Assembly: GCA_938005545.1 (NCBI GenBank)
Contig: CALKXV010000014.1
Coordinates: 62,001-126,000, forward strand
DNA: 64,000 nucleotides
Direction of reading: 5' to 3'
Source: an uncultured Paracoccaceae bacterium
GTDB taxonomy: Bacteria > Pseudomonadota > Alphaproteobacteria > Rhodobacterales > Rhodobacteraceae
In this document: piece after piece, positions 9,137 to 33,868 of the stretch
Layout: each line of letters starts with the position of its first letter
Numbering within the stretch: position 1 is the stretch's first letter
Translations under genes and position numbers: made by a program
The notes under the pieces: model-generated
The model's input: the letters and a program-made list of their open reading frames with translations, nothing else
Databases searched by the model: none
What the model was told of the DNA's origin: nothing

Positions 9137-9146
9137 ACCAAGTCCA

Positions 9147-9177
9147 GGGTTCCCCGCAGGTTGCTGCCGGGGAACCC
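9147..9177 (+). promoter_or_regulatory. Intercistronic stem-loop after tctC
   Basis: GGGTTCCCC (9147-9155) pairs with GGGGAACCC (9169-9177), and inside it GCAG pairs with CTGC around a GTTG loop. This gives about 13 paired bases with one bulged C. No T-run follows, so it is more likely an RNA-stabilising or attenuating hairpin than a full terminator. Confidence 0.7.
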
Positions 9178-9211
9178 AACACGCTGATCCCAAAACCTTC
9201 GAGGGCCGTCC

Positions 9212-17933: not shown

Positions 17934-19271
17934 TCAGACGTCGGCGGCAAGCGTAGTTTGCATCCAGTTGGCAGTGCGAAGCAACCGGTCATCTTCTTCG
18001 ATGGATCCGTAAAGTTGCACCCCGATGGGCAGATCATTTTCGCCGACCAGAAGGGGAAGGGTTAATGCGGGCAAGCCACACAAACTGGCGATGCGACAAA
18101 AGATCGGATCGCCCGTCCCACCACTGGCCAGCAACGGCGCTTCGCCGCTGGCCGCTGGGGACAGAACCGCATCGAAATCGACAAAGTGTTTGGCAAAAAA
18201 CGCATCGGCCGAAGCTTTGACGGCCAAGGCGTCTTCGTATTGGACTTTGGTGATTTCTTTTCCGCGGGCAATTATCGGCCTTAAGGTATCGCTCAACGCC
18301 TCCCAATGGGTGTCGATCATCTCGCTCAGGTGCTGGCAGAATTCGTATTCGTGGATGGTGATATGGATTTCGATCAGATCGGTAAGCGTGGCGGATACCG
18401 GAAGTCGTGTGACCCGCTGACCCAAGGCTTCTATCACAGCGTCCAATCCTTCGCGTGCGTCCGCATCCAGCAAGTCGTTGAAGGAAAAATCAAACCATGA
18501 AATGTCAGGCTCAACCGGGGCGTCGGCCTGGGCACCTGCAAATTGCTCAGGCCTTGGTCGCGCGAAGCTGGCCGGATCGCGCGGATCATAGCTGCCCAAA
18601 ACATCACACAACAGGGCCGCATCGGTTAGCGTACGTGCAAAGACCCCCAGATGATCAAGCGTTTCCGAGGTTTGCAAAACACCGGTGCGGGAAATGACAC
18701 CGCGGGTCGGCTTCACCCCATAGGTTCCACAATAAGACGCAGGCCGAATGACCGACCCGCCAGTCTGTGAACCAACAGCTAAGGGCACATGCAATGCCGC
18801 AACAGCAGCAGCCGATCCGCTGGACGATCCACCCGGTGTACGCGTGGGATCACATGGGTTCAAAGTGTCTGTCGGATGTGCGAAGGCCAATTCGGTCGTC
18901 CGGGTTTTGCCCATTATCACGGCACCGGCTTCGCGCAAAAGATTGACAATCGTGGCGTCCGTTTCTGGCCGATGGCCAGCAAAAACTGCCGTGCCGCGTT
19001 CCGTTGGCATAAAACGCGTATCGACGATGTCTTTCAACCCGACGGGCACCCCATGCAATGGCCCCGTTGCCCGGCCCGCTTTGCGGATACGGTCCATTTC
19101 CTTGGCTTGGACCAATGCCATGTCAGGATCCAAAAACGCCCAGGCGTTCAGGGGATCATCGCCGATCTGGTCCAAACACGCCTGCACCAAATCAACCGAC
19201 GCCAGCCGACCGGCACGGATAAGTTCCGCCCCTTGCAACGCCGTCAGAAGATGCAGATCCTTCGCCGCCAT
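17934..19271 (-). CDS. Amidase (amidase-signature family)
   Basis: A 445-residue amidase. The Ser-cisSer-Lys triad is visible: Lys80 in VGLKDIVDT, serines in PGGSSSGSAAA near 149, and nucleophile Ser173 in SQTGGSVIRP. It hydrolyses a carboxamide to acid and ammonia in the cytoplasm. It is not GatA by context: no gatB or gatC is nearby, and it sits in a TRAP-transporter operon. Its start overlaps the DctM stop (TGATG). The imported substrate is therefore probably an amide or contains one; identity unknown. Confidence 0.87.
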   Translation of the reverse strand: MAAKDLHLLTALQGAELIRAGRLASVDLVQACLDQIGDDPLNAWAFLDPDMALVQAKEMDRIRKAGRATGPLHGVPVGLKDIVDTRFMPTERGTAVFAGHRPETDATIVNLLREAGAVIMGKTRTTELAFAHPTDTLNPCDPTRTPGGSSSGSAAAVAALHVPLAVGSQTGGSVIRPASYCGTYGVKPTRGVISRTGVLQTSETLDHLGVFARTLTDAALLCDVLGSYDPRDPASFARPRPEQFAGAQADAPVEPDISWFDFSFNDLLDADAREGLDAVIEALGQRVTRLPVSATLTDLIEIHITIHEYEFCQHLSEMIDTHWEALSDTLRPIIARGKEITKVQYEDALAVKASADAFFAKHFVDFDAVLSPAASGEAPLLASGGTGDPIFCRIASLCGLPALTLPLLVGENDLPIGVQLYGSIEEDDRLLRTANWMQTTLAADV

Positions 19272-20635
19272 CAGGGGATGTACTCACCGAAAAGGTAATC
19301 CGGGAACCAAAGCGCGATGCCGGGGAATTGGTACATCAAGACCATGGTCAGGATAACGATGCCAAGGTAAGGCATCAAACCCCTGAAAATCTCCATCAGT
19401 TCGATCTGCTTCTTCAGGACACCCTTCAGGTAATAGGCTGACATCGCCATTGGCGGGGTCAGGAAAGAGGTTTGCAGGTTAAGGGCGACAAGCATCGCGA
19501 AAAAATATGGATTCACCCCGAAGGTATCCAACATTGGCAAAAAGATCGGCACGAAGATGATCAGAATTTCTGACCATTCAAGCGGCCACCCCAAAAGGAA
19601 GATGATGAGTTGCGCCAGAACCAAGAATTGCCATGGCTGAAGGTTCATCGCCAAGAACCAATGTTCAATGATGTCATGGCCACCAAGCACCGAGAACACG
19701 CTGGCGAACGTCCAGGAACCGACAAACAGCCAGCACACCATCGCGGTCGCTTTCGCTGTCAGGAAAACGCTTTCCTTCACCTTGGTCCATGTCAGGGAGC
19801 GATAGAGGATGGCCAGAACCAATCCACCCATTGCCCCCATGGCCGCGGCCTCGGCGGGTGTCGCCAATCCGCCCAATATTGATCCCAGCACCAGCATGAT
19901 CAAAACGGTGAGCGGCACGAAAGATATCAGCAGATCCAAATAGATCTTTTTGGGCGGTGGTATGTCGTCAAGGTTTGGTTTTGGCGCAATCGACGGGTTC
20001 AAGGTCACGCGGATCATCACATAAACAATGTAAAGGCCCGCCAATAAAAGCCCCGGGAAAACGGCGGCGGCATACAAACGCAAAGGCGACAGTTCCGCAA
20101 TCGCGGCATAGACGATCAACATGATCGACGGAGGGATCAGGATACCCAATGTACCGCCCGCACAGATCACACCCGCAGCAAAGGACTTGTCATAGTTCGC
20201 ATTGGCCATGGCCGGATAGGCCAAAAGACCCATCAGCGTCACCACCGCCCCGACGATACCCGAAGCCGTCGAAAACACAGCACAGGTCAACAGGGCCGCA
20301 ATTGCCAAAGACCCCGGAAGGTTACGTGCTGCCATGTAAAGCGAAAAGAACAACCGGTCGACGATATTGGCCCGTTCAACCACATAGCCCATGAACAGGA
20401 ACAAAGGGATGGCGACCAATGTGTCGTTTTCCATCACCGAATAGGTGTTCTGGTTCAACAAGTAGAAAATGTTGTTGTCGAAAATGTCGCCAAAGCTTTC
20501 CGGCGCCGTTTTGAAATAGGCGTAATATCCAAAGCCAACGCCCATAGCGAGCAGCGTGAAGGCAATCGGAAAACCTAGAAGCACCAGCAAAACGAAGAGG
20601 CTGAGCATCATGATTGCGACTTGAGGGTCCGTCAT
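19271..20635 (-). CDS. dctM: TRAP transporter large permease (DctM)
   Basis: A 454-residue polytopic membrane protein of the DctM family. Characteristic parts are the N-terminal VLLVLLGFPIAFTLL, the loop VPLFLFMGYVVERANIVDRLF, and GTLGILIPPSIMLIVYA in the middle. With DctQ it forms the sodium-driven TRAP membrane complex for organic acids. It is followed directly by the amidase with overlapping codons. A 37-base gap separates it from DctQ upstream. Confidence 0.93.
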   Translation of the reverse strand: MTDPQVAIMMLSLFVLLVLLGFPIAFTLLAMGVGFGYYAYFKTAPESFGDIFDNNIFYLLNQNTYSVMENDTLVAIPLFLFMGYVVERANIVDRLFFSLYMAARNLPGSLAIAALLTCAVFSTASGIVGAVVTLMGLLAYPAMANANYDKSFAAGVICAGGTLGILIPPSIMLIVYAAIAELSPLRLYAAAVFPGLLLAGLYIVYVMIRVTLNPSIAPKPNLDDIPPPKKIYLDLLISFVPLTVLIMLVLGSILGGLATPAEAAAMGAMGGLVLAILYRSLTWTKVKESVFLTAKATAMVCWLFVGSWTFASVFSVLGGHDIIEHWFLAMNLQPWQFLVLAQLIIFLLGWPLEWSEILIIFVPIFLPMLDTFGVNPYFFAMLVALNLQTSFLTPPMAMSAYYLKGVLKKQIELMEIFRGLMPYLGIVILTMVLMYQFPGIALWFPDYLFGEYIP

Positions 20636-20672
20636 CTTATTGATCTTTCTGAATTCTTAAGCGCGCTTCGGA

Positions 20673-21254
20673 TCAGAGTTTTGCGTCGTCCACATCCATA
20701 TGCATCAACATATCTTCGGTTTCGCGCACGTCATCCAAGCGCTCGAGCCATTCACCGGATTTCATTGCCATCCAACAGCGCGCCATTTCGGCTAGGCCCT
20801 GCAACATCAGCAGAACGCCTGCGAGTGGGATCAGTGTTTTGAAGAAATAAATCTGGATGCGGGCCGGGCTGTTCCAGCTGACTTCCTGATACCGCCAGCT
20901 GTCGGCTGCGATCTCCCAACCGTACCAGAACAGGGCCAACATACCGGGGAAGAAAAACAGGATATAAAGAACGAAATCCACACGGGCCTGCCAGCGTACC
21001 GAAAACAAGCGGTACAAGACATCGCCACGGACATGTGCGTCTTGGGCCAAGGCATAAGGCCCCGCCATCAAGAACAGCGCACCATACATCTGTACCATCA
21101 TGTCAAATGCCCAAACTGTCGGGGCGTTCAAAACATAGCGGACAAACACTTCGTAGCACACGCTTAGTGTCAGGATCAGAATGCACCACCCGAAGGCACG
21201 TCCAACCCATTGGCTGAGACCTTCAATGGTATGAATGAAATTGACCACGCTCAC
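20673..21254 (-). CDS. dctQ: TRAP transporter small permease (DctQ)
   Basis: A 193-residue protein with four predicted membrane helices and the DctQ-type first half (GWCILILTLSVCYEVFVRYV, then NAPTVWAFDMMVQMYGALFLM). It ends in a charged cytoplasmic tail. It pairs with DctM. It lies 77 bases after the binding-protein gene, with a strong stem-loop in between. Confidence 0.9.
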   Translation of the reverse strand: MSVVNFIHTIEGLSQWVGRAFGWCILILTLSVCYEVFVRYVLNAPTVWAFDMMVQMYGALFLMAGPYALAQDAHVRGDVLYRLFSVRWQARVDFVLYILFFFPGMLALFWYGWEIAADSWRYQEVSWNSPARIQIYFFKTLIPLAGVLLMLQGLAEMARCWMAMKSGEWLERLDDVRETEDMLMHMDVDDAKL

Positions 21255-21278
21255 TTCTCCCGGCGCAAAGTCACGGAG

Positions 21279-21305
21279 CCGAAGGCCGCATGTCGCGGCC
21301 CTCGG
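21279..21305 (-). promoter_or_regulatory. Intercistronic stem-loop between dctP and dctQ
   Basis: On the plus strand CCGAAGGCCGC (21279-21289) and GCGGCCCTCGG (21295-21305) pair over 11 positions around a 5-base loop; the single mismatch becomes a G-U pair in the minus-strand RNA. No T-run follows. Confidence 0.7.
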
Positions 21306-21331
21306 TCCAAAAGTTCACATACGTCCGGCGA

Positions 21332-22432
21332 TCAACCGAAGTAGTGCTTATATGCCAGCTTGTAATCTGGCTGGTTCAAGTTCAGGTAGTTCATCACGTT
21401 TTTGGCGTAAGCCTTCTGGCTATCAACCACTTTCGCAAAGAACGCGTCCTCACCTGAAATCCGGTCAACAACGATGTCCCAAGCTTTCAGCTGCTCGGCC
21501 ATTACGCTGTCTGGTGTCCGATAAACGTTTACACCCTGTTCGTCGCGCAGCGTGGTCAGGTCATCGGCATAACGTTTGGTGTTGTTCCAGTAGAAGTTCG
21601 AGTTCTCGGATTCAGACGCATACTTCAGAATCGCCTGCAATTCGGGGGAAAGACTGTCGTATGTGTCTTTGTTGAACGTGCACTCGAAAAACTCCTGCGA
21701 CTGATGGAACGACGCCAAGTGGTAATGTTTGGACACATCCTGCATACCAAAGTCGCGGTCCGAGGTCGGGTTGTTGAACTCGGCTGCGTCAATCAGGCCC
21801 GACTTCATCGCAGGCTGAATTTCACCGCCTGGAAGCTGAACAACAGACATGCCCATTTCCAAAAGAACATCAGCAGCCAGACCGACGGTCCGATACTTCA
21901 GGCCGTTCATTTGGCTGGCGTCTTTGATCTCTTCCTTGAACCAACCCAAAGGCTGCGCTGGCATCGGTGAGTTAAAGAACGACACAAGGTTCAGACGCAG
22001 CGACGCCATCAGCTCATCAAACAGTTCCTGACCGCCGCCATAGTGGATCCAACCGAGAACTTCCTGGCTCGACCAGCCAAAACAAGGACCAGTCCCGAAC
22101 AACGAAGCTGTCTTCGATTTCGAATACCAATACGCAGGCACATAGTGCGCCGCATCGATCACGCCGCGGTGGACCGCGTCTTGCATCTGACTGGTTTTCA
22201 CAACCGAGTTCACAGGCAACAGATCAATCGTCAGCGCACCGCCCGACATTTCGTTGACACGGTTCACATAGGATTGTGCGTTCTCAAGAAAGATACCGCC
22301 GCCCCAGCCTGCTTGCATCTTCAAATTGATGCCGTGGCCGTCTGCGATCGCAGGTGTCGCAAGAGTTGCGGCCCCTGCCCCAGCAAGGGCTGTACCGCGC
22401 AGAAATTTTCTGCGGTTTAATGTGTTGGTCAT
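21332..22432 (-). CDS. dctP: TRAP transporter substrate-binding protein
   Basis: A 366-residue DctP/TakP-like binding protein. It has a twin-arginine signal (LNRRKFLRGTAL) with a probable cleavage after AIA, so export is likely by Tat. The segment YRTVGLAADVL contains the arginine that usually binds the substrate carboxylate, and QLPGGEIQPAMKSGLIDAAE is typical of the family. The ATG at 22432 has GGGAGGA just upstream; the apparent earlier TTG start would overlap that ribosome site. It is the first gene of the operon. TakP relatives bind 2-oxo acids, but the ligand here is not known. Confidence 0.9.
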   Translation of the reverse strand: MTNTLNRRKFLRGTALAGAGAATLATPAIADGHGINLKMQAGWGGGIFLENAQSYVNRVNEMSGGALTIDLLPVNSVVKTSQMQDAVHRGVIDAAHYVPAYWYSKSKTASLFGTGPCFGWSSQEVLGWIHYGGGQELFDELMASLRLNLVSFFNSPMPAQPLGWFKEEIKDASQMNGLKYRTVGLAADVLLEMGMSVVQLPGGEIQPAMKSGLIDAAEFNNPTSDRDFGMQDVSKHYHLASFHQSQEFFECTFNKDTYDSLSPELQAILKYASESENSNFYWNNTKRYADDLTTLRDEQGVNVYRTPDSVMAEQLKAWDIVVDRISGEDAFFAKVVDSQKAYAKNVMNYLNLNQPDYKLAYKHYFG

Positions 22433-22444
22433 GTTTCCTCCCAA

Positions 22445-22817: not shown

Positions 22818-23687
22818 TCAGACCCGTCTAATTTCGCTGCGCACACTTAGGGTGACCCAGAGCGAGGCGGCGATGACCAGGATTGCACCGGGCGTAAAAC
22901 TTGGTCCGGGCACCTCTTTGAACACGAAATAGCCAACACCAACCGACAGTATAAGGCTGACATAACTGAGAACGGACAGATATCCCGCTGTCCCGTGGAA
23001 ATGCGCGCGCAGGAAACAGAATTGCGCGGCCTGTGCGAAACAGCCGACGCAAATCAAGGCCCCCAAATGACCAAGTGGAACCGGTTCCCAAGCCATGACT
23101 GCAAATGGTGCGCTGAAGACCGACAGCCCGATGGTGTAAAATGTCATCATCACAATCGGCGGCGCTGCGCGCAGGGCTCTTGTCGTGACGACGACGGCTG
23201 AGGCTGCAATGACGACGACAACCATTGCCGCCACGCCCCAGCTCCACGGCATTGTGCCTGGATTCACCGCAATCACGACCCCGACCAGCGCAACACTGGC
23301 GGCGATCCAGCCGCGCATCCCGATCACTTCGCGCAAAAGAACGGCCACCATAATCATCGTGATGATTGGTCGGGTAAAACTGACGGCGGTGAACACTGCC
23401 AATGGCAATCGCGCAATGGCAAAAAAGCTGGCCGTCAAGGTGATGGCCGCAAGAAAGACACGCAGCAGGTGGAGCGGAAGTTGCGGCAAGTGGCAGAATT
23501 CTCCGCGGCGCGCCCAGATCAACGGCGAGATAACCATCAACCCGACAAATGCACGAAAAAATACAATCTGCGATGCCGGGTAATCGGCCCCCAACCATTT
23601 GACCAGCGACAAAGACCAAATGTTCAACGACAAATCCGCCAAAAGCCACGCGCCGCCCTTCAGGTTGTCACGTGGTTCATCGCTCAT
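22818..23687 (-). CDS. EamA/DMT-family transporter
   Basis: A 289-residue protein with about ten hydrophobic helices in two EamA repeats (first AFVGLMVISPLIW through VGVVIAVNPG, second GVAAMVVVVIAAS through ILVIAASLWVTL). Family members export amino acids, nucleotides or other metabolites. Its ATG overlaps the stop of the PIG-L gene upstream (ATGA), so it belongs to that operon. It might expel or take up a product of the pathway. Substrate unknown. Confidence 0.85.
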   Translation of the reverse strand: MSDEPRDNLKGGAWLLADLSLNIWSLSLVKWLGADYPASQIVFFRAFVGLMVISPLIWARRGEFCHLPQLPLHLLRVFLAAITLTASFFAIARLPLAVFTAVSFTRPIITMIMVAVLLREVIGMRGWIAASVALVGVVIAVNPGTMPWSWGVAAMVVVVIAASAVVVTTRALRAAPPIVMMTFYTIGLSVFSAPFAVMAWEPVPLGHLGALICVGCFAQAAQFCFLRAHFHGTAGYLSVLSYVSLILSVGVGYFVFKEVPGPSFTPGAILVIAASLWVTLSVRSEIRRV

Positions 23688-26047
23688 GCCCGTTTGGCGA
23701 TAAGATTGGCCATAAGCCGAAATGCACCGGGTACAAGGTTCTCCATTTGGTGGTGCAAGATCAGCGACGTGTGAATGTGCCGTCCTTGTCCCACATCCGC
23801 TACCAAAAGCGCGCCCCTATGTGGGTCTTCGTTCGGGTCGGCCATTTCGATCAGCGGCGTATAGGCGTCGTCCCAGCTTTTGGCAAAGTACAGCCCGCGT
23901 TCTTTCACCCAATTGGCCCAATCACCGGGGCCGATTTCGTTCGGCGTGGACAGCAAGGGATGATCCGTCAGATGCCGCACCTCTGCCGTCTCATCCGTCA
24001 CGCGCCATCTGAGCGAGGGCTGACCGATTTCTAACCTGTGCAGCGGTGTTTGGTCCGGGTCCCAATTGTCCCATGGCCGATGGTAAAGCGTGACAAGAGT
24101 GCCGCCCGCCGCAGCCCATTTGTGAAGACGCGGCATCGCTTCAGACAACCCATCCCGGAACCGCATCGCAAGAATACCAATGACAATCGTGTCAAAACGC
24201 GTCAGCTCTTTGTCGCGCCTCAGGTCAGCGTCCGAAACATCGGTCACATCCGCGCCAAGCACAGACAACCAATGGTTCACGCGATCATTTCCGGCACCGA
24301 TATAGCCGACTTTTACATCGGGCAGTCTGGCATCCAAAGCCAACACCCGAAGGATGGCAGGCCGGGACAACGCCGTGGGCGCAGTGTGAGAATGTTCAAT
24401 GCGTTCCACGTCGAAGGCGGCACGTCCGTCGACGTGGACGGGTATCTCATGCAGCCCCGGTGTCAGAGCGTCCGGCACCGTAAAACCGACACCACCCGCA
24501 GAATCACGCGCCGCCCACCCTTTTGGCAATTCCAAAGATATTGCCGCCCCGCTTGGGTACACACCGTCGATACGCCCTGCAAAAGATCGCGCATCCGTTG
24601 CCAGATTGATCAGCGCAGCACTCGGGGTGATCCGGGCCATGTTGGCGGGAAGAATAACCGGTGAACGTTCCATCGGCAGTCGGACACTGGCCCGGTCGCC
24701 CAGATAAGTCATCTTTACAACAAGGGCCGGCGTATCGGCGATCATCGGATCATAGGTGACGCGATAAGGGTGGGTTGGCGCGGCCGTGTCATCAATCACA
24801 AGCCGGTCATTTTCGATCGACCACCCTTCAGGCAGATCATATGTGACCTCGACACTTTCCGCCTGCCCCATTGCAAGCTCTTGCACCAATTCTGTTGATT
24901 GACCGGGCGCAAGAAACTCTGCACCAACCCGACTTCGCACATCAACGCCCAAAGCCAAACGGATCACTTGGCTTAGCTGAACTTCTTTTGCCTCCAATCG
25001 GTGACGCGCTTCATCCACCACGTCTTTGGGAAGGTTCGATTGGGCGTCACGCACGGCTTTCAGCGCCTGAATTGCGAATGAAGCGACTTCGTCGAACGCG
25101 GGGAAAGCTTTAACGCACCCGTCAATTGCCGTCTGCGCGTCGGTCAACGCATCGGCAATGGGTTCTGCGCCCGGCAGTCCGGCAAGATCACCAAGGTGCA
25201 CCGCCAAACCCGAAGTCAGTTCCGTATCAGGCCCCGCAACATGGGTGTCGACCAGATGGAGCGGCCAATCGCGCCACTGACCGCTTGGCACCCAACGTCC
25301 CATGCCTTGGGTTCGGTGAAAGGCACGGGATTGTTGCCCGATCCGGTCCCACGACCAGCCGCTGATCGGATCAATGCCTGACCCTTTTACCGTCAATGTC
25401 GCAGGCGGCGGTGGCAGATCATCGTCATAGGCCTGCCCGGCACCTGACCATGCAGGCAAGTACATCTTTTTCACCTGCCAGGGCTTCAGGTTCGACGGAA
25501 AGCCCCGGTCCGCAGCCGCGTCCATCACATCTTTTGTCGCTTGCGTAATCGCCCGGTGGTGACCGTGTTGCCCCGGCACATCCAGAAACGTCGGGCAAAT
25601 GATATCCGGTCTTTCCGTGCGGACGATTTCGACAAACCGCGCCAAAGTACGTTCCCGCCCCCAACGACCAAACGTTTCATCCCCGCTTTTCGAAAACCCG
25701 AAATCAGTGATCGTGTCGCTTGGGGTTTCTGAATGCCAATACATTCGCATCTGTAGAATATCGCAGGCGCGCTCCATTTCACGGGTGCGAAGCGCGCCTA
25801 ATCCGGCTCCGGCCTCGGTGCCAACATCGTTCTGCCCGCCTTCACCACGGGTCGAACAGGCGTATGAGGTATTGATACCATCTCGAAACGTCAAAGCTGC
25901 CAACATTCCCGATATCTCATCATCGGGATGGGCACCGGTTTGCATAAATCGCACGACGGACGTTAACGGCCTTAACGCCCACCATAACTCGGTGATCCGG
26001 GGCCGCGCGCGGTCCGCTTCAATTCGGGTTTGATCAGCCGATGGCAT
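23684..26047 (-). CDS. Large PIG-L (LmbE) family deacetylase
   Basis: A 787-residue protein with three parts. Residues about 30-280 are a PIG-L/LmbE zinc deacetylase: AHPDDE at 39-44 (zinc ligands plus the general base) and QHGHHRA with the third zinc histidine. Residues about 350-580 contain one or two beta-sandwich, NEW3-like segments. Residues about 590-787 look like a class I glutamine-amidotransferase-like fold without an obvious catalytic Cys. Family members remove N-acetyl groups from amino sugars. There is no signal peptide. Both ends overlap neighbours: its ATG overlaps the ROK stop (TGATG) and its stop overlaps the EamA start. Substrate unknown. Confidence 0.85.
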   Translation of the reverse strand: MPSADQTRIEADRARPRITELWWALRPLTSVVRFMQTGAHPDDEISGMLAALTFRDGINTSYACSTRGEGGQNDVGTEAGAGLGALRTREMERACDILQMRMYWHSETPSDTITDFGFSKSGDETFGRWGRERTLARFVEIVRTERPDIICPTFLDVPGQHGHHRAITQATKDVMDAAADRGFPSNLKPWQVKKMYLPAWSGAGQAYDDDLPPPPATLTVKGSGIDPISGWSWDRIGQQSRAFHRTQGMGRWVPSGQWRDWPLHLVDTHVAGPDTELTSGLAVHLGDLAGLPGAEPIADALTDAQTAIDGCVKAFPAFDEVASFAIQALKAVRDAQSNLPKDVVDEARHRLEAKEVQLSQVIRLALGVDVRSRVGAEFLAPGQSTELVQELAMGQAESVEVTYDLPEGWSIENDRLVIDDTAAPTHPYRVTYDPMIADTPALVVKMTYLGDRASVRLPMERSPVILPANMARITPSAALINLATDARSFAGRIDGVYPSGAAISLELPKGWAARDSAGGVGFTVPDALTPGLHEIPVHVDGRAAFDVERIEHSHTAPTALSRPAILRVLALDARLPDVKVGYIGAGNDRVNHWLSVLGADVTDVSDADLRRDKELTRFDTIVIGILAMRFRDGLSEAMPRLHKWAAAGGTLVTLYHRPWDNWDPDQTPLHRLEIGQPSLRWRVTDETAEVRHLTDHPLLSTPNEIGPGDWANWVKERGLYFAKSWDDAYTPLIEMADPNEDPHRGALLVADVGQGRHIHTSLILHHQMENLVPGAFRLMANLIAKRA

Positions 26048-27231
26048 CAAAGCTCCTGCGGTTGGGGCGTGATTTTCGGTGTGAAGGCGTGGTTCAAAAC
26101 CAGGGCAGCAGCGCCGAGCGTTGCCGTCATCCGCCCCGACGCACCGCGCGTCAAACGGGGTACGCTGCGCATTCTGCGGTTCGAAACAGATCGTTCGGTC
26201 AGGCGCACGGTTTGCACCAGATGATCCAGAATATTGTCCGGCATCGCCCCGCCAAGAATGATCGTCTGTGGATCGAACAGATTTTCCAGGATCGAGATTG
26301 CCGCCGACAACGGCTCAACGGTGCGATCAAGCCATGCGTGCAACGTCGGCTCGCCCGTTCGGTAAAGCTTGGCCAAAGCATCGACGTCCTGTTTTTCCAA
26401 ACCAGCGCTCTGCAAAGCCTCGCCCAATGACCGGCGGCTGACCACATCTTCGAGCATCACAAGCTTGCCGCCCGCAGGAACTTGCAGCGTTCCGATCTCT
26501 CCGGCATTCCCAAATGCCCCTGCCATCAACCGACCGTCTTGAACCACACCAAGCCCCAGACCGCTGCCGAAATAAAGGAAAGCATAGGTGTCCAGCCCCT
26601 GCGCCGCGCCTGAGACCCGCTCGGCAATCGCGGCTGCGTTGGCGTCGTTTTCGACAAGCAACGGGCGACCCAACATATCCGACAACCAGACCTCGGGCGG
26701 CGTATCGTCCCAGATCGGCAGCTCGGATGCACCACTTTGGATACCCGTGCAGCCGAATGGCCCCGGCATAACAACACCAAGGCCCAGCACGCGATCCACG
26801 TCACATCCGGAACGATCCAACAAGGCCGCATGCATGTCCCGCACAGCCTTGACCACGCCGTCGCGATCCTTGGTCACCACCTGTTTGCGGCGTTCGGCCA
26901 CGGGTTCGCCGCAGAAATTCAACAGCCCGCCAAAAACGGCATCCGGCCTGATCTCGATCCCGGCGGCAAAACCGCCGACCGCGTTCAACGAATATTGCAC
27001 CACCGGAACCCCGCGAGAAACAGCGCGGTGACCTTGCTGAACGATCAACCCGTCATCCATCAAATCTGCAATGATGTTCGACACCGCTTGCGTCGATAAC
27101 CCCGAAGCCCGCGCGATATCGGCGCGACCAATTCTTGCAGCACGCCGAATGCACCCCAGAACCACTTGTCGATTGTGGCCGCGCGAACGACCGGCATTCG
27201 CTCCTACAACTTTGTCGGTCACGGCAATCAT
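26047..27231 (-). CDS. ROK-family transcriptional repressor
   Basis: A 394-residue ROK repressor. An N-terminal winged helix (about 18-80, with ADIARASGLSTQAVSNIIADL as recognition region) precedes a sugar-kinase-like ROK domain containing GVVMPGPFG, LVENDANAAAIAE and GNAGEIGTL. The CxCGxxGCxE zinc motif expected after GEIG is absent, as is its histidine. It is divergent from the ABC transporter operon, with two palindromes in the shared gap. It most likely represses both directions and is released by a sugar-like ligand. Confidence 0.88.
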   Translation of the reverse strand: MIAVTDKVVGANAGRSRGHNRQVVLGCIRRAARIGRADIARASGLSTQAVSNIIADLMDDGLIVQQGHRAVSRGVPVVQYSLNAVGGFAAGIEIRPDAVFGGLLNFCGEPVAERRKQVVTKDRDGVVKAVRDMHAALLDRSGCDVDRVLGLGVVMPGPFGCTGIQSGASELPIWDDTPPEVWLSDMLGRPLLVENDANAAAIAERVSGAAQGLDTYAFLYFGSGLGLGVVQDGRLMAGAFGNAGEIGTLQVPAGGKLVMLEDVVSRRSLGEALQSAGLEKQDVDALAKLYRTGEPTLHAWLDRTVEPLSAAISILENLFDPQTIILGGAMPDNILDHLVQTVRLTERSVSNRRMRSVPRLTRGASGRMTATLGAAALVLNHAFTPKITPQPQEL

Positions 27232-27245
27232 AGCCCCCGACTAGC

Positions 27246-27276
27246 TCAAGTTACTTGATAGCTCAAGATAGTTGAG
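27246..27276. promoter_or_regulatory. Probable ROK repressor operator (two palindromes)
   Basis: Two inverted repeats lie side by side: TCAAG-TTA-CTTGA (27246-27258) and CTCAA-GATAG-TTGAG (27262-27276). The segment TAGCTCAAG also occurs twice (27242-27250 and 27259-27267). The AT-rich cluster sits 15 bases from the ROK start and about 80 bases before the ABC binding-protein gene. Confidence 0.6.
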
Positions 27277-27355
27277 TTAGTTCTTTAGGCATATGCGATC
27301 CCGCCCAGCGACCTCGTACAAACGCTGACCGGAATGAACAGCAGGGAGACATTCA

Positions 27356-28615
27356 ATGAATACCGTTAAGTATAAAGCACTTGCACTTGGTATGGCCACC
27401 AGCGTCGCCACACTTTTGGGCAGCGCCGCCAATGCCGTCGAGATTGAGTACTGGCAATATTACTTCGATGCTCGCGTGACCGCCATGGAACAATTGATCG
27501 AGAATTTCGAAACGGCCAACCCAGACATCACCGTTAAAATGTCCCACTTCCCCTATGCCGACTACCGCACGAAAGTGGCGGCCGCCATTCCGGCCGGCGA
27601 AGGCCCGGACGTTGTGCAGTTGTTCTATGGCTGGCTGAATGACTATGTCGAAGCCGAACTGATCCAACCCTTGCCCGCCGACGCCTTTCCAGCTGAGACC
27701 ATCGATGCCGAATTCTTCCCGATGGTACAGGCGATGAAATCCGGCGATCAATACTGGGCGCTTCCGACAGCGGTTCGTTCACTGGCGCTTTTCTACAACG
27801 AACGTCTGCTTGAAGAAGCCGGTGTCGAACCACCCAATACGATCGAAGAAATGATGGCTGCCGCCGCTGCCATGACCAAGCGCGATGGCGCGGGCAATAT
27901 TACCCAAGTGGGAATGACCGCCGGTATGACCGCGCAGGATCACCATTGGTGGCGCGAAGGTCTGATACGTCAGATGGGCGGCGAGCCCTACACCAATGAC
28001 TATACGTCGGTGAATTACAATTCCGAGGCCGGTCTGAAAGCTCTTGAAATGTATGTCGGCATGGCAACCGGCGACGATGCCATCACGGCATTTGGTTTCA
28101 TGGATGAACCACAGGCCGCCTTCAAGGCGGGCCGCGCCGGTATGCATATCGACGGGTCGTTCCGCATCGGTTCGCTCAACAAACAGCGCGGTCTTGAATG
28201 GGGCGTGACCGAGCTTCCGGCGACGACGGATGGCACGCGCTCAAACTATTCGTCCTATTGGGTGAATGCGATCACCACAAAAGCCGAAGGCGAGAAATAC
28301 GACGCCGCTGCAAAGTTTATGGCCTATGTCACATCTGACGAAGCCATGCAGGTGTGGCTGGACGTGGTCGGCGAATTGCCTGCTAAACCGTCCGTTGGTC
28401 TGACCGAAGCCAACGCCAATGATGAGACCTACGGCCCCTTCATCCGCGGCCTCGCCTATGCGAACACCACCAAGTTCGCAGACGAGTCTGCACAGCGTCA
28501 GCTGATGGTGGAAATGGTCGAAAGGATCACACTTGAGGGGATGTCCCCGGCTGACAGTCTGGCGAAAGCTGCCGAGGCTGAGCAGAAAATCCTCGACGAA
28601 TACTACACCAAATAA
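27356..28615 (+). CDS. ABC transporter sugar-binding protein
   Basis: A 419-residue family-1 extracellular binding protein. It has a Sec signal peptide (about 1-27, cleavage near ANA) and the type B architecture with FETANPDITVKMSHFPYADY and GPDVVQLFYGWLNDY. Aromatic and acidic residues are as in sugar binders of the MalE/UgpB group. The ribosome site CAGGGAG precedes the ATG. It is the first gene of an ABC operon that continues with two permeases, a lyase, an ATPase and a kinase. Confidence 0.9.
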   Translation: MNTVKYKALALGMATSVATLLGSAANAVEIEYWQYYFDARVTAMEQLIENFETANPDITVKMSHFPYADYRTKVAAAIPAGEGPDVVQLFYGWLNDYVEAELIQPLPADAFPAETIDAEFFPMVQAMKSGDQYWALPTAVRSLALFYNERLLEEAGVEPPNTIEEMMAAAAAMTKRDGAGNITQVGMTAGMTAQDHHWWREGLIRQMGGEPYTNDYTSVNYNSEAGLKALEMYVGMATGDDAITAFGFMDEPQAAFKAGRAGMHIDGSFRIGSLNKQRGLEWGVTELPATTDGTRSNYSSYWVNAITTKAEGEKYDAAAKFMAYVTSDEAMQVWLDVVGELPAKPSVGLTEANANDETYGPFIRGLAYANTTKFADESAQRQLMVEMVERITLEGMSPADSLAKAAEAEQKILDEYYTK

Positions 28616-28627
28616 ACGATTGACTGG

Positions 28628-28647
28628 CCCCGGCGGATACGCCGGGG
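28628..28647 (+). promoter_or_regulatory. Intercistronic stem-loop after the ABC binding-protein gene
   Basis: CCCCGGCG (28628-28635) and CGCCGGGG (28640-28647) form a perfect 8-bp stem with a GATA tetraloop in the 54-base gap before the first permease. No T-run follows. Confidence 0.75.
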
Positions 28648-28669
28648 TCTCACCGTCCGAAGGATGGGC

Positions 28670-29563
28670 ATGAACGTCTACCGAAATCTTACAATCAAAC
28701 AAAAACAGATCGTCTGGGCCTGGAGCTTCCTGGCCATTCCGGTTTTGTTTTATACTGTGATCCGGTTCTACCCGACCGGAAATGCCATCCTGATCAGTTT
28801 TCAGGATTGGAACCTTCTGGGCAAACGCACTTGGACGGGTCTCGACAATTACGAAAAACTATTCGCCGATCCGGCTTTCTGGAAAGTGTTCAAAAACACT
28901 TTTGTTTATCTGCTGATCGGCACACCGCTCAGTCTGATTGTGTCCTTCTTCATTGCTTATAACCTTGACAAAACCCGTTTCATGCACGGGTTTCTCAGGA
29001 TGCTTTACTTTCTGCCATTCATGACCAGCGCGGTCGCCATGGCATGGGTTTGGCGGTGGTTCTATCAACCGGTGCCAATCGGTTTGTTCAACAATTTTCT
29101 ATCGACATTCGGCATCCCGCAAATAAACTTCTTGAATTCAACAACCAACGCGCTGCCCTCGATCCTTGCCCCTGCCATTTGGGCGGGATTGGGATTTCAG
29201 ATCATCATCTTTATGGCGGGTTTGCGCGCCATTCCACAAAGCTATTATGAAGCGGCCCGGATTGACGGCGTGTCAACATGGACGGTGCTTTGGGAAATCA
29301 CGATACCGCTTTTGAAGCCGACAATCGTATTCATCGTGGTCTTTTCGTCTATCGGGTTTCTGCGCATCTTCGATCACGTCTTCAACATGACAACCGGCAA
29401 CCCCGGCGGGCCGCTAAATTCCACCAAGCCCCTTGTGCTGATGATCTATGAAACCGCGTTCAGCTCTTTCGATATGGGCTATGCCGCCGCGCAGACTGTT
29501 ATCTTATTCCTTGTTCTGCTGGTAGTCAGCCTGCTCCAGCTTCGCATTTTGAGAGACCGCTGA
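28670..29563 (+). CDS. ABC sugar transporter permease (MalF/UgpA-like)
   Basis: A 297-residue permease with six predicted helices and the EAA loop EAARIDGVSTWTVLWEITIP. The ATG at 28670 is preceded by AAGGA at a good distance; another ATG two codons earlier overlaps that site. It is adjacent to and overlaps the second permease (TGATG). Confidence 0.9.
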   Translation: MNVYRNLTIKQKQIVWAWSFLAIPVLFYTVIRFYPTGNAILISFQDWNLLGKRTWTGLDNYEKLFADPAFWKVFKNTFVYLLIGTPLSLIVSFFIAYNLDKTRFMHGFLRMLYFLPFMTSAVAMAWVWRWFYQPVPIGLFNNFLSTFGIPQINFLNSTTNALPSILAPAIWAGLGFQIIIFMAGLRAIPQSYYEAARIDGVSTWTVLWEITIPLLKPTIVFIVVFSSIGFLRIFDHVFNMTTGNPGGPLNSTKPLVLMIYETAFSSFDMGYAAAQTVILFLVLLVVSLLQLRILRDR

Positions 29564-30441
29564 TGGCCATTGCCGAGGAAATTCGTCCAACCACTGACGC
29601 GCTGTTGAAAACCACAGCGCCAAAGCGACCGGCCAATATGGGTCAGATTATCCGCTGGGGGCTTTTGTTTCTTGGCGGCATCCTGATGATCATGCCGATT
29701 GTCTATATGATCTCGACGTCGCTCAAATGGCCCCATGAAATCTATAATCTCAAACTGATCCCCGACGAACCGACTATTGAAAACTATACGTTTGTTCTGC
29801 AAGACGGACGCTTTTTCTGGTGGTTTTTGAATTCCATCGTCATCGCCGTGATCACAACGCTTTGTAATGTTCTTTTTGACAGTCTTGTTGGCTACACTTT
29901 GTGTAAATTCCGTTTTCCCGGTCGCTACATCATCTTCATTGCGATCCTTTCTACCCTGATGATCCCGACGGAAATGCTGGTGATCCCATGGTATTTGATG
30001 AGCCAGCAATTCGGATGGCTCGACACCTATTGGGGCATCATGTTTCCGGGCCTTATGACGGCTTTTGGCACTTTTCTGATGAAGCAATTTTTTGAAACCG
30101 TTCCCAATGATTTCATCGAAGCCGCCCGCATTGACGGGCTGAACGAATTGCAGATCTGGTGGACGGTCGCCATGCCGCTGGTGAAACCTGCGCTGGCCGC
30201 ATTGGCGATCTTCGTGTTTTTGGGCAATTGGACCGCTTTCATTTGGCCGTTGATCGTTACCAATTCCGTTGAAATGTATACCCTGCCCGTCGGTCTTTCT
30301 TCTTTCGGGGATGAAGCGGATGTTGCGTGGGAACTGATCATGACGGGGGCTGCGATCTCAACCATCCCGACGCTTATCGTCTTTTTGATCTTCCAGCGGT
30401 TCATCATCCGCGGCGTCGTAATGGCGGGGCTAAAAGGATGA
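29563..30441 (+). CDS. ABC sugar transporter permease (MalG/UgpE-like)
   Basis: A 292-residue permease. After a cytoplasmic N-terminus of about 30 residues come six helices and the EAA loop EAARIDGLNELQIWWTVAMP. Its stop overlaps the start of the lyase gene (ATGA), so transporter and enzyme are made together. Confidence 0.9.
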   Translation: MAIAEEIRPTTDALLKTTAPKRPANMGQIIRWGLLFLGGILMIMPIVYMISTSLKWPHEIYNLKLIPDEPTIENYTFVLQDGRFFWWFLNSIVIAVITTLCNVLFDSLVGYTLCKFRFPGRYIIFIAILSTLMIPTEMLVIPWYLMSQQFGWLDTYWGIMFPGLMTAFGTFLMKQFFETVPNDFIEAARIDGLNELQIWWTVAMPLVKPALAALAIFVFLGNWTAFIWPLIVTNSVEMYTLPVGLSSFGDEADVAWELIMTGAAISTIPTLIVFLIFQRFIIRGVVMAGLKG

Positions 30442-31922
30442 TCGACAGGTCAGTATTCCCCGATCCAACCTACCGCGATACGGTTCTGGCGCCATTGTTT
30501 GAGGGCGTCAAAACTCACTATGCATCGGGCATGGACCAGATCAATCGCGCCCATCTGGTGATGCTTCGGGAAACCGGCATTCTGGGCAAAAACGACACTG
30601 CCCGGATCGCCGACGCATTGACCGACATCACTGCAAGCACAGACCTTGGCGCGCTCACATATACCGGCGAGCACGAGGATTACTTCTTTTGGGTCGAGGC
30701 TCAGCTACGCGATCGCCTCGGCGATCTTGGCGGCGCACTTCACACCGCACGCTCGCGCAATGACATGGATCACACCCTGTTCAAAATGGCGCTTCGCACC
30801 CGCGCCAGTCATTTGATGCATCAGGTTCTGACGCTTGCAACAGCCCTCACCGACAAAGCCGAGGCCGAGGCCCAAACGCTCATCGTCGCTTACACCCACG
30901 GTCAACCTGCCCAACCCTCAACCTTCGGTCACTACCTCGCAGCCGCCATCGAAACACTTCTGCGCGACGCCAAACGCCTTGAGGCAGCCATGCGCGACCT
31001 CGATCAGTGTCCCATGGGTGCGGCTGCGATCACGACCTCGGGGTTTCCAATTGACCGCGAACGTATGGCCGAGCTTCTGGGTTTCGAAGGCGCTTTGCTC
31101 AACTCTTATGGCTGCATCGCGTCGGTTGACTATATCACCGGTCTCTACTCTGCGATAAAACTGGTCTTCCTCCACCTCGGACGGCTCATCCAAGACCTGG
31201 CGTTCTGGTCGGCGTTCGAAGTCGGCCAGCTTTATGTCCCGAATGCGCTTGTGCAGGTTTCTTCGATCATGCCGCAAAAACGGAACCCGGTTCCCATCGA
31301 ACATCTGCGCCACCTGTCCTCTGTTACGGTCGGGCGCTGCGATATGATGGTGAACACGATGCACAATACGCCGTTCACCGACATGAATGACAGCGAGGGC
31401 GAAGTGCAACAGGCAGGCTATGCCGCCTTTGACAGCGGTGGCCGCGTGCTTGACCTTTTGGCAACAATGCTGCCAGCCTGTTCGATCAATGCCGAACGGG
31501 TCCGCAAAACCAGCGATGCCGCCTGCATCACAATCACCGAACTCGCAGACACATTGGTCCGTGATGAAAGTGTGACTTTTCGTGCCGCCCACGAGGTCGC
31601 CTCAAAAACCGCCCGCGCCGTTATCGCGAAAGACTGCCCCTTGGGTGCAGGTTTCGCAGATTTCGCCGAAGCCTTCAAAGACGAAACAGGCCGCGACACG
31701 ACACTCTCAGAAGCGGACTTCGCCCATGCCACCTCCCCCGAAACTTTTATCGCCCGACGGGACCGCACAGGTGGTCCTGCACTGAACGCGCTTACCAATG
31801 CGTTGGAAAAATACCGAGGCACCACAGACGAAATTCAGGCACAGTCCAAGGCCCGGCTTTCGCGCATTTCGACAGCCGATGCCGCCCGCAATGCGGCCTT
31901 CCAAAACCTGACGGAGACCTGA
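30438..31922 (+). CDS. Argininosuccinate-lyase-like enzyme of the ABC operon
   Basis: A 494-residue member of the aspartase/fumarase superfamily, closest to argininosuccinate lyase. It has HTARSRND near 102-109, AYTHGQPAQP with the proton-relay histidine, FPIDRERMAELLGF, and the flexible loop SSIMPQKRNP near 275 with the catalytic serine. Enzymes of this fold cleave a C-N bond and release fumarate. Its place between permease and ATPase genes argues for a catabolic substrate rather than arginine biosynthesis; EDDS lyase is a known catabolic relative. The ATG overlaps the permease stop. Confidence 0.82.
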   Translation: MIDRSVFPDPTYRDTVLAPLFEGVKTHYASGMDQINRAHLVMLRETGILGKNDTARIADALTDITASTDLGALTYTGEHEDYFFWVEAQLRDRLGDLGGALHTARSRNDMDHTLFKMALRTRASHLMHQVLTLATALTDKAEAEAQTLIVAYTHGQPAQPSTFGHYLAAAIETLLRDAKRLEAAMRDLDQCPMGAAAITTSGFPIDRERMAELLGFEGALLNSYGCIASVDYITGLYSAIKLVFLHLGRLIQDLAFWSAFEVGQLYVPNALVQVSSIMPQKRNPVPIEHLRHLSSVTVGRCDMMVNTMHNTPFTDMNDSEGEVQQAGYAAFDSGGRVLDLLATMLPACSINAERVRKTSDAACITITELADTLVRDESVTFRAAHEVASKTARAVIAKDCPLGAGFADFAEAFKDETGRDTTLSEADFAHATSPETFIARRDRTGGPALNALTNALEKYRGTTDEIQAQSKARLSRISTADAARNAAFQNLTET

Positions 31923-31925
31923 TCC

Positions 31926-32984
31926 ATGGCCGACCTCGCGCTTCGCGATCTGGTGAAAACCTATGACAAAACCGAGGTGCTGCACGGCATCAATCTAGAC
32001 GTCCATGACGGCGAATTCGTCGTCTTCGTTGGCCCCTCGGGCTGCGGGAAATCCACGACTTTGCGCCTGATCGCGGGTCTGGAAGAGGTTTCCTCGGGCA
32101 CCATCGAAATCGGCGGCACGGTCGTGAATAATATGGAACCCAAACATCGCGACATTGCGATGGTCTTTCAGAACTATGCGATCTACCCCCATATGACAGT
32201 GCGCAAAAACATCGGCTTTGGCCTGCGCAGCTCCTCTGCCCCAAAAATCCAGAAAGAAGCCCGCATAGACGAGGTCGCGCAACTTCTTGGAATGACTGAT
32301 CTTCTTAACCGCAAACCCGACCAACTGTCCGGCGGCCAGCGACAGCGCGTTGCCATCGGACGGGCCATGGTGCGCGATCCAGCGGTGTTTTTGTTCGACG
32401 AACCGCTTTCTAACCTTGATGCCCAATTGCGTACGCAAATGCGGTTAGAGATCAAGAAACTGCACCAGCGCGTCGGCTCTACAATCATTTTCGTCACCCA
32501 CGATCAGGTCGAAGCGATGACCATGGCAGACCGGATTGTCATTATGAAAGACGGATATATCCAGCAGGTCGGCACCCCCTCCGAGGTGTATCACACACCG
32601 GCCAATACCTTCGTTGCGCAATTCATCGGAGCACCGGCCATGAATATGATCCCGGGCGAGATCACGAATAATGGCTCTATCCAACTTGAAACAGGCGGGT
32701 TGATCGACGCCGGGCTGGCCGCCCGTTCGGGGCAGAAAATTACGCTGGGTGTTCGCCCGGAAGACCTAAGCGAACATGCCCCTGCATCGTTTCTTGAAGG
32801 CAGCATCGCGGTGCGCGAACCATTGGGCCACGAAACGCTGATCTATGTGAATACCAGCGTCGGCGAGTTCGTGGCAAAGGCAGACGGGCGCCACCCCCCC
32901 GATGTCGGCGCAACAGTACGCTTGGGCGCCTTACAGGAGAACCTGCACATTTTCGACGCCGAAACCGGAAGCACGCTGGCTTGA
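31926..32984 (+). CDS. ABC transporter ATPase (UgpC/MsmK type)
   Basis: A 352-residue ATPase with Walker A GPSGCGKST at 36-44, Q-loop near AMVFQNYAIYP, signature LSGGQRQRVAIGRA, Walker B VFLFDEPLSNLD, H-loop FVTHDQVEAM, and a C-terminal TOBE regulatory region from about 240. It energises the two permeases encoded upstream. Three bases separate it from the lyase stop. Confidence 0.93.
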   Translation: MADLALRDLVKTYDKTEVLHGINLDVHDGEFVVFVGPSGCGKSTTLRLIAGLEEVSSGTIEIGGTVVNNMEPKHRDIAMVFQNYAIYPHMTVRKNIGFGLRSSSAPKIQKEARIDEVAQLLGMTDLLNRKPDQLSGGQRQRVAIGRAMVRDPAVFLFDEPLSNLDAQLRTQMRLEIKKLHQRVGSTIIFVTHDQVEAMTMADRIVIMKDGYIQQVGTPSEVYHTPANTFVAQFIGAPAMNMIPGEITNNGSIQLETGGLIDAGLAARSGQKITLGVRPEDLSEHAPASFLEGSIAVREPLGHETLIYVNTSVGEFVAKADGRHPPDVGATVRLGALQENLHIFDAETGSTLA

Positions 32985-32986
32985 GC

Positions 32987-33868
32987 ATGTCGGGCGATCA
33001 CCCAAACATCCTTTGTGTCGGACGTCTGTATTGCGACGTGATCTTCACCGATCTGCCTCGCATGCCCACAGCCGGAACCGAAGTGTTCGCCGGGGGGCTC
33101 GGGATTCATGCAGGTGGCGGGGCCGCAATCACAGCCGGACACTTGGCCGCATTGGGCCACCAAACCGCTCTGGCCGCATGTTATCCGGGGGCCGACTTTG
33201 GCAATATTGTCCGGCGCGAACTTCAGGACCTGAAGATCAATCTTGACCTATGCCGCGACCAGGATCCGCGATTTGACCCTCAGCTGACCAGCGCTTTTGT
33301 TCAGAACGGCGAACGCGCCTTTGTCACACATCGCGCCGGTCCCGCCTTCCCGCAATTCACCGCGCAAGACATCGATCATTTCCGGCCTGCCCACATCCAT
33401 ATCGGCGAAGCCACCACGCTTGTAGACAATCCAAACCTCATCGAAATAGCCAGAACACTGGGCGCAACGCTTTCATTGGATTGTAGTTGGGATGACAATC
33501 TGGATGCCGATAAGATCACCCGCCTTCTGCCAGAGATCGACGTGTTTCTTCCAAACGACTCTGAGGTTCAATTGTTGCAAAAACTGGGCGTACCCGCGCA
33601 ACTATCGAAGATTACCGTTATTAAACAAGGCTGTAATGGTGCGTCCGCACTTTTCAATGGTTCCCAAATTCATGCCCCCGCAGTTTCTACACAAGTTGTC
33701 GACACAACCGGTGCAGGCGATGCGTTTAACGCCGCTTTTCTGGGTGCTTGGCTTAAAAACAAGCCTATCGAGCATTGTCTTGAACTCGGGAATGCAAAAG
33801 GGGCCAATTCCACGACTTTCCGGGGCGGATTGGGCGGACTTTCAAACAACGTGGTTTCAACGGACTAA
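32987..33868 (+). CDS. PfkB-family carbohydrate kinase
   Basis: A 293-residue ribokinase-like enzyme. It has the N-terminal substrate glycines (FAGGLGIHAGGGAAITAGHL) and the C-terminal PfkB signature DTTGAGDAFNAAFLGAWL with the catalytic Asp. It transfers phosphate from ATP to a sugar or similar hydroxyl compound. The ATG at 32987 is preferred; a TTG at 32981 overlapping the ATPase stop (TTGA) is an alternative. As the last gene of the operon it probably phosphorylates the sugar part of the imported compound. Confidence 0.87.
   Translation: MSGDHPNILCVGRLYCDVIFTDLPRMPTAGTEVFAGGLGIHAGGGAAITAGHLAALGHQTALAACYPGADFGNIVRRELQDLKINLDLCRDQDPRFDPQLTSAFVQNGERAFVTHRAGPAFPQFTAQDIDHFRPAHIHIGEATTLVDNPNLIEIARTLGATLSLDCSWDDNLDADKITRLLPEIDVFLPNDSEVQLLQKLGVPAQLSKITVIKQGCNGASALFNGSQIHAPAVSTQVVDTTGAGDAFNAAFLGAWLKNKPIEHCLELGNAKGANSTTFRGGLGGLSNNVVSTD

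Follow-up and report, generated by a model that had tools for sequence, protein, structure and literature searches.

A conserved gene cluster of a Paracoccaceae bacterium and its relatives with a putative role in the catabolism of an acylated glucosamine bearing a C4-dicarboxylate group

Here we describe a cluster of nine genes on contig CALKXV010000014.1 of GenBank assembly GCA_938005545.1, from an uncultured Paracoccaceae bacterium of the Rhodobacterales. The stretch analysed, hereafter the window, has a length of 64,000 nucleotides (contig positions 62,001 to 126,000, forward strand), and the cluster occupies positions 22,818 to 33,868 of it. In one operon the gene of a ROK-family repressor is followed by those of a large PIG-L amide hydrolase and an EamA transporter; in the other, the gene of a sugar-type ATP-binding cassette (ABC) binding protein (SBP) is followed by those of permease 1, permease 2, a lyase of the argininosuccinate lyase (ASL)/fumarase superfamily, an ABC ATPase and a PfkB kinase. 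We lean towards reading the cluster as serving the catabolism of an acylated glucosamine with a C4-dicarboxylate group, and we add, more tentatively, that its substrate may be of the bacillithiol type. An earlier note, made from the DNA letters alone, had proposed a system for uptake and catabolism, and the gene order shared with relatives, found in marine and soil bacteria, supports a conserved unit of this kind.

Conservation was assessed in GTDB genomes, where the lyase as query retrieved 80 loci (62-83% identity), mostly from Rhodobacterales and Hyphomicrobiales, plus two from Granulosicoccaceae. Gene presence was counted with tblastn, because the caller of open reading frames (ORFs) missed some genes (none were called in locus L124). 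All eight genes other than EamA were found in 61 of the 80 loci, in every case in identical order and on identical strands, and 40 loci carry EamA in addition. Permease 2, lyase and ATPase are present in all 80 loci, SBP and permease 1 in 77, PIG-L in 76, ROK in 66, PfkB in 64 and EamA in 43; the four loci negative for PIG-L are cut by contig ends, as judged by position. Since 61 loci keep the same eight genes, order and strands, the gene set is a real unit and not a product of chance, and joint conservation of the neighbours, set beforehand as a test, holds. Within the window's family the lyase was found at E <= 1e-100 in 31 of 198 sampled genomes, its own included (30 of the 197 others), and 398 sampled genomes of the phylum gave six lyase matches above 60% identity, again with the window's own among them, the others reported lying at 33-38%.

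Optional genes were scanned in 97 loci, comprising these 80, 12 divergent loci and five plasmid loci. Plasmids of four Deinococcus species (D. ficus, D. wulumuqiensis, D. deserti and D. actinosclerus) carry a row of genes for ROK, lyase (about 31-36% identity), SBP, the permeases, a small PIG-L and a kinase of the PfkB type. In three of the four, lyase and SBP are separated by a large protein; that of D. ficus carries PIG-L and NEW3 domains and has a signal-like N terminus. Matches in Haladaptatus and Geminicoccaceae have other neighbours and fall outside the clade, on long branches. Further genes at the ends of the operons, read by eye, were scattered, and neither these nor a PHROGs search brought any gain.

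The possibility, raised in the earlier note, that this lyase is the sole ArgH of its genome did not hold: six Lyase_1 proteins are encoded there, and one of them (L002) is the standard ArgH by its motifs. On the same kind of evidence, the window lyase is distinct from that ArgH. It retains SRND, YTH and SSIMPQKRNP, the ArgH/fumarate-side motifs, and residues S106, R107, N108, D109, H154, S275, S276, K281 and N283 are among those invariant over 31 lyase sequences. The loop of the YSKDMQED type, which we take to be the arginine side of ArgH, reads AYSKDMQED in L002 and PFTDMNDSE in the window lyase, and the form PF[TAG]D[MI][NT]D runs through the window clade and three aligned Deinococcus proteins (altered in Deinococcus). 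That the enzyme is a second ASL, housed in a sugar operon and supplying arginine or nitrogen, would agree with its passing the argH cut-off TIGR00838 and with the name argH in the public annotation. This is nevertheless very improbable in our view, given the standard ArgH with its YSKDMQED loop, the different loop of the clade and of the three Deinococcus rows, and the annotated alphaproteobacterial loci examined, where no arginine-biosynthesis gene is listed beside the lyase (the PLSDB gene tables being incomplete).

An AlphaFold model of the lyase (predicted local distance difference test, pLDDT, 87.8) is closest to EDDS lyase from Chelativorans sp. BNC1 (Z 36.7, root-mean-square deviation 3.3, 462 residues aligned, 26-27% identity); the fold does not separate EDDS lyase from ASL, because ASLs follow at Z 34.5 and below. 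Both enzymes handle fumarate, and as they are the nearest structural matches of the window lyase, fumarate is its likely product. The bond cleaved with this putative release of fumarate may be C-N, as first suggested, or C-O. We know of no PIG-L, kinase or sugar importer linked to EDDS lyase. According to excerpts of a published study, EDDS lyase adds amines to fumarate, with N-substituted aspartates as the products (PMC12363623); the cleavage proposed for the window lyase is the reverse of this.

An EDDS-lyase-like C-N lyase might instead split an amino sugar with an N-(1,2-dicarboxyethyl) group, or some comparable aminopolycarboxylate conjugate, into fumarate and the free amino sugar, with no part for bacillithiol. 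Besides the structural rank of EDDS lyase (Z 36.7, with the best ASL at 34.5), C-N bonds are the usual target of ASL-family members, and glucosamine would still result, so the kinase and deaminases discussed below would fit. Yet the Z gap is small and the identity to EDDS lyase low, the window clade reads YTHGQP at the position of YTQRKE in EDDS lyase (YTH in place of YTQ), and the PIG-L amide hydrolase and the thiol dioxygenase of some relatives would have no clear job; we consider this explanation, the foremost alternative, unlikely.

The PIG-L protein (model pLDDT 90.9) is built of an N-terminal PIG-L domain, a middle part made mostly of beta strands after a helical stretch, and a C-terminal ThuA/GATase1-like domain. 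The structure nearest to residues 30-285 is MshB (Z 22.1), followed by LnmX (20.0), GalB and diacetylchitobiose deacetylase (18.7) and BshB (18.4), matches within 1 Z of each other being treated as tied; residues from about 577 to 788 match STM3548 (Z 17.4), the GATase1-like 3rht (16.1) and the ThuA-like 1t0b (15.7). HPDDE and GQHGHH are invariant in 43 PIG-L sequences, and a sequence profile gave no PDB matches other than diacetylchitobiose deacetylases (best E 5.3e-6). The protein shares with MshB, Mca and BshB the PIG-L domain, the HPDD metal motif and a second His motif, and differs from them in its 788 residues, its long middle part and ThuA-like domain, and its scores far under the NCBIfam cut-offs. 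The small PIG-L of D. ficus scores 160.6 bits as MshB, 123.9 as Mca, 83.9 as BshB2 and 74.9 as BshB1, all below cut-off. Of the deacetylation proposed for this protein, an amide hydrolase of the N-acetylglucosamine (GlcNAc) type stands, acetyl being a candidate for the acyl group that it removes.

The sugar can be approached through the gene neighbours of the relatives. A ROK kinase takes the PfkB slot in six of the 97 loci (L118, L119, L121, L122, L133 and L137), and a helix-turn-helix annotation was found for none of these ROK proteins; the motif DxGGT was confirmed in the slot proteins of the first four, and in L118 Pfam finds the ROK domain alone. The slot protein of L117 has both a helix-turn-helix and DxGGT. 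Genes for glucosamine-6-phosphate (GlcN-6-P) deaminases occur near the cluster in 21 of the 97 loci, 17 of them NagB-II-like and four classical NagB. Eighteen are in operon position (L011, L014, L023, L024, L027, L032, L035, L038, L040, L044, L052, L118, L122, L124, L127, L128, L133 and L137) and those of L018, L046 and L057 are found at distances of about 1.2-2 kb. All 21 matches fall in the 486 kb of flanking DNA no more than 3 kb from a cluster edge, with no match in the 407 kb beyond. Five SIS proteins were scanned, four beside the lyase (L024, L127, L128 and L133) and one elsewhere in the window's own genome (L149); NagB-II was the best model, with scores below its cut-off of 430, and the PDB matches of the L024 protein include the GlcN-6-P deaminase 8eol. 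For the proteins of L118, L122, L124 and L137 the highest scores identify them as GlcN-6-P deaminases of the NagB type, with L137 (Loktanella) above the nagB cut-off TIGR00502.

Judged by sequence, neither kinase type alone indicates glucosamine. Because two unrelated kinase families share one slot and are accompanied by two unrelated deaminases of the same specificity, the gene neighbours support glucosamine fairly well as the sugar. The earlier suggestion that the sugar part is phosphorylated is in line with this: a sugar kinase is present, and the deaminases and the swapped ROK kinase of the relatives fit, pointing to glucosamine. An Amadori or fructoselysine pathway was considered separately and rejected, because the four SIS proteins scanned beside the lyase reach 195-316 bits with the NagB-II model, compared with 26.9 and 28.3 bits, in the cases listed, for fructoselysine-6-phosphate deglycase.

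The window's genome has a NagB-II-like gene (matching that of L024 at 44%) beside a NagA above its cut-off, at a separate locus (L149, on contig C65); a classical NagB was not found in this genome. Because of the NagB-II-like gene at that other locus the genome could make use of GlcN-6-P, and it seems to possess a separate GlcNAc route. Plain N-acetyl amino sugars, initially among the candidate substrates, fit less well for the same reason, namely the separate nagA/nagB-II locus. Ordinary catabolism of N-acetylated GlcNAc oligosaccharides or glycosides has also to be weighed, with PIG-L as deacetylase, the kinase and deaminase finishing the route, and the lyase acting on a side group or in an unrelated step. 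The PIG-L fold does resemble that of diacetylchitobiose deacetylases (Z about 18-18.7), which are also the sole sequence matches of the protein in the PDB, the importer is of the sugar type and relatives have NagB-type genes. However, the genome is already equipped with nagA/nagB-II, and permeases, lyase and ATPase remain linked even in loci that lack PIG-L or kinase next to them (all loci being lyase-selected), so the lyase step looks central; we hold such a route to be quite improbable. By eye, the L149 locus also includes a GntR-type regulator, a MurQ-like SIS protein and another sugar ABC importer.

A thiol-dioxygenase gene directly follows the kinase gene in three of the 97 loci (L023, L030 and L032) and is itself followed by NagB-II in L023 and L032. 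The name rests on PDB sequence matches of the small L030 protein, the best being mercaptosuccinate dioxygenase (E 1.7e-8), 3-mercaptopropionate dioxygenase and cysteine dioxygenase; the proteins of L023 and L032 are 56% identical to it, and no Pfam or NCBIfam match was found for those of L023 and L030. Separately, a VOC-family gene was observed between permease 2 and lyase in 13 of the 97 loci (e.g. L026:8613-9059), and the L026 protein, the only one searched, gave weak matches to a dioxygenase-related protein and FosA.

In the pathway that we favour, the ROK repressor would leave its candidate operator on arrival of the inducer, and the CUT1 importer, going by its family, would bring the conjugate in. 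The PIG-L protein, whose family and fold suit the task, would hydrolyse the amide on the glucosamine nitrogen, and the lyase, going by its motifs, would split off the C4 acid, in the form of fumarate, through beta-elimination at a succinyl carbon linked via O or N; the two steps could take place in either order. PfkB, or the ROK kinase in relatives, would make GlcN-6-P, and NagB-II or NagB would deaminate this to fructose-6-phosphate, both steps being consistent with the gene neighbours (in the window's genome NagB-II is at the other locus). If the substrate is of the bacillithiol type, cysteine set free would be oxidised by the thiol dioxygenase, whose gene is linked in three relatives, or exported.

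To our knowledge, bacillithiol is the one natural compound in which an acylated glucosamine, a C4 acid and a thiol come together. Because these three elements make up its scaffold, we hypothesise that bacillithiol (Cys-GlcN-malate, with cysteinyl-glucosamine as Cys-GlcN), its N-methylated form, one of its S-conjugates or the GlcN-malate core would be the best-fitting natural substrate. In the bacillithiol case the lyase would eliminate the glycosidic oxygen, much as fumarase eliminates water. The cluster might then represent the first catabolic pathway for bacillithiol-type thiols, made up of an importer, a Cys-GlcN amidase (PIG-L), a novel GlcN-malate fumarate-lyase, a glucosamine kinase and a GlcN-6-P deaminase, by which non-producers such as roseobacters would feed on the thiols of others; we offer this as a tentative proposal that is rather doubtful as it stands. 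No PF10079 match (BshC) was found in the window's genome, with three of 14 control genomes positive. Excerpts of the literature describe bacillithiol as the alpha-glycoside of cysteinyl-glucosamine with L-malate (PMC10950700), state that its Cys-GlcN amide needs dedicated hydrolases (PMC6336425) and place N-methyl-bacillithiol in the marine Polaribacter MED152 (PMC6282198).

Two other compounds were considered and rejected as substrates. GlcNAc-asparagine has an amide-linked asparagine, which offers no fitting leaving group for a lyase of this type. In mycothiol, according to the excerpted source, the glucosamine is joined to inositol and there is no C4 acid, so that the lyase would be left without a substrate (PMC6336425).

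Among described systems, the detoxification of bacillithiol S-conjugates (Bca/BshB2, then export of the mercapturate) is similar in its cleavage of the Cys-GlcN amide, but it detoxifies in producers, and the excerpts of the source describe no further breakdown of GlcN-malate, nor a lyase, importer or kinase (PMC10950700). The Nag system with NagB-II has in common the kinase, the GlcN-6-P deaminase and the NagB-II-like genes seen in relatives of the window cluster; it differs in that the window pathway adds a fumarate-type lyase and would deacylate before rather than after phosphorylation. The earlier note knew of no described pathway combining these enzymes, and in open-access full texts none was found for PIG-L and argininosuccinate lyase with PfkB, or with an ABC transporter and ROK; PIG-L with Roseobacter likewise returned nothing there. 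No pathway for the breakdown of bacillithiol or its use as food appeared among the matches listed from the open-access literature, as far as their excerpts go.

Several observations weigh against the pathway that we favour. The loci were collected through the lyase and are hence a non-random sample. Of the 80 loci, 16 (some of them at the ends of contigs) have no PfkB and 11 have neither ROK nor PfkB; L015 and L083, among these 11, are short contigs. Plasmids of Bosea and Shinella (L145 and L146) show SBP, two permeases, lyase and ATPase with no PIG-L or kinase annotated beside them; the adjoining gene is annotated 'substrate-binding domain-containing protein' and is perhaps a LacI-type regulator, and no ROK is annotated nearby. 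PIG-L is absent beside the lyase in L128 and L133, and also in L117 and L138, which have an MBL-fold hydrolase (L117:11638-12507 and L138:7178-8026, the latter resembling AidB lactonase) that may stand in for PIG-L or be a sign of a different substrate. In three additional Deinococcus records, lyase, SBP and permeases are all that is seen, and the lyase tree, built by a quick method, leaves the Deinococcus lyases unplaced between the alphaproteobacterial clade and ArgH.

The same holds for several assignments of function. The window lyase scores above the NCBI argH equivalog TIGR00838 (304.6 bits, cut-off 279.5), and its PIG-L neighbour far under the cut-offs for Mca (29 of 277 bits), MshB (25.7 of 224) and BshB2 (23.8 of 195). 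The best matches of PfkB are ribose-1-phosphate kinase, IolC and YdjH, and the ROK kinases score best against glucokinase and fructokinase models, all below cut-off. No deaminase was found nearby in 76 of the 97 loci or in the window itself, and many of the loci that bear one are closely related (L118 and L137 are nearly identical). The thiol dioxygenase is limited to three of the 97 loci and its best PDB match acts on mercaptosuccinate, which is itself a C4-dicarboxylate thiol and possibly the relevant one.

The ROK repressor of the window has a winged helix and a ROK domain and is without the DxGGT kinase motif, which was present in one of 67 orthologues checked. The divergent gap shared by the two operons (27232-27355) contains the palindrome CTCAAGATAGTTGAG, and its half-site TAACTCAA is found in 65 of 78 gaps between ROK and SBP (the window's among them), as against a maximum of 6 for any 8-mer in 20 shuffled sets. 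The predicted operator, used in the strict form CTCAA-N5-TTGAG as a probe of the whole genome for further regulon members, gave a single further exact match, which lies within a predicted coding sequence. Control by one repressor acting on one target region is likely, because the half-site recurs across the gaps and there is just this additional site in the genome.

The nine genes that the earlier note placed in two divergent operons were all recovered as ORFs of the expected Pfam families (Table 1). Each minus-strand gene does overlap the next, EamA and PIG-L by 4 bases and ROK and PIG-L by 1 (ATG start) or 4 (TTG start). The near-total overlap described for the plus strand is borne out for the permeases (1 base), permease 2 and lyase (4) and ATPase and PfkB (4 if PfkB starts at TTG), but SBP and permease 1 are 48 bases apart and lyase and ATPase 3. 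The best solved-structure match of SBP is the acarbose/maltose-binding GacH, and EamA is possibly an exporter of a product.

Table 1. Features of the cluster, with coordinates in the window.
Feature	Coordinates	Strand	Details
EamA/DMT-family transporter	22818..23687	-	PF00892, 60.7 bits
Large PIG-L amide hydrolase	23684..26050	-	PF02585; 788 aa from TTG, 787 from ATG
ROK-family repressor with winged helix	26047..27231	-	PF00480 + PF13412
Candidate palindromic operator CTCAA-N5-TTGAG	27262..27276	.	CTCAAGATAGTTGAG in shared divergent gap
CUT1 sugar-type ABC binding protein (SBP)	27356..28615	+	PF13416 (SBP_bac_8), PF01547
ABC permease 1	28664..29563	+	PF00528 (BPD_transp_1)
ABC permease 2	29563..30441	+	PF00528 (BPD_transp_1)
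ASL/fumarase-superfamily lyase, ArgH paralogue	30438..31922, ATG at 30438	+	PF00206 (Lyase_1), PF14698 (ASL_C2); NF005218 (PRK06705 family) 314 bits
UgpC/MalK-type ABC ATPase	31926..32984	+	ABC_tran, MalK OB, TOBE; NF008653 484.2 bits, cut-off 432
PfkB sugar kinase, proposed glucosamine kinase	32981..33868	+	PF00294

Named by eye from their translations, amidase-like and TRAP-transporter-like genes adjoin the cluster (17934-22444, minus strand); we place them outside the unit because they have at best weak, distant matches in the 80 loci. Farther off on the plus strand, genes of a TctC/TctA-like tripartite tricarboxylate transporter and a PrpF-like protein were noted in the same way at 8036-11239 and 10897-12327.

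If the bacillithiol reading is true, it would imply a flow of sulfur, nitrogen and carbon between bacteria, and a textbook enzyme superfamily would gain a new reaction. Should the substrate differ, it would still be the case that a common protein annotated 'argininosuccinate lyase', which was found in 30 of the 197 other sampled genomes of the family, is probably misnamed.

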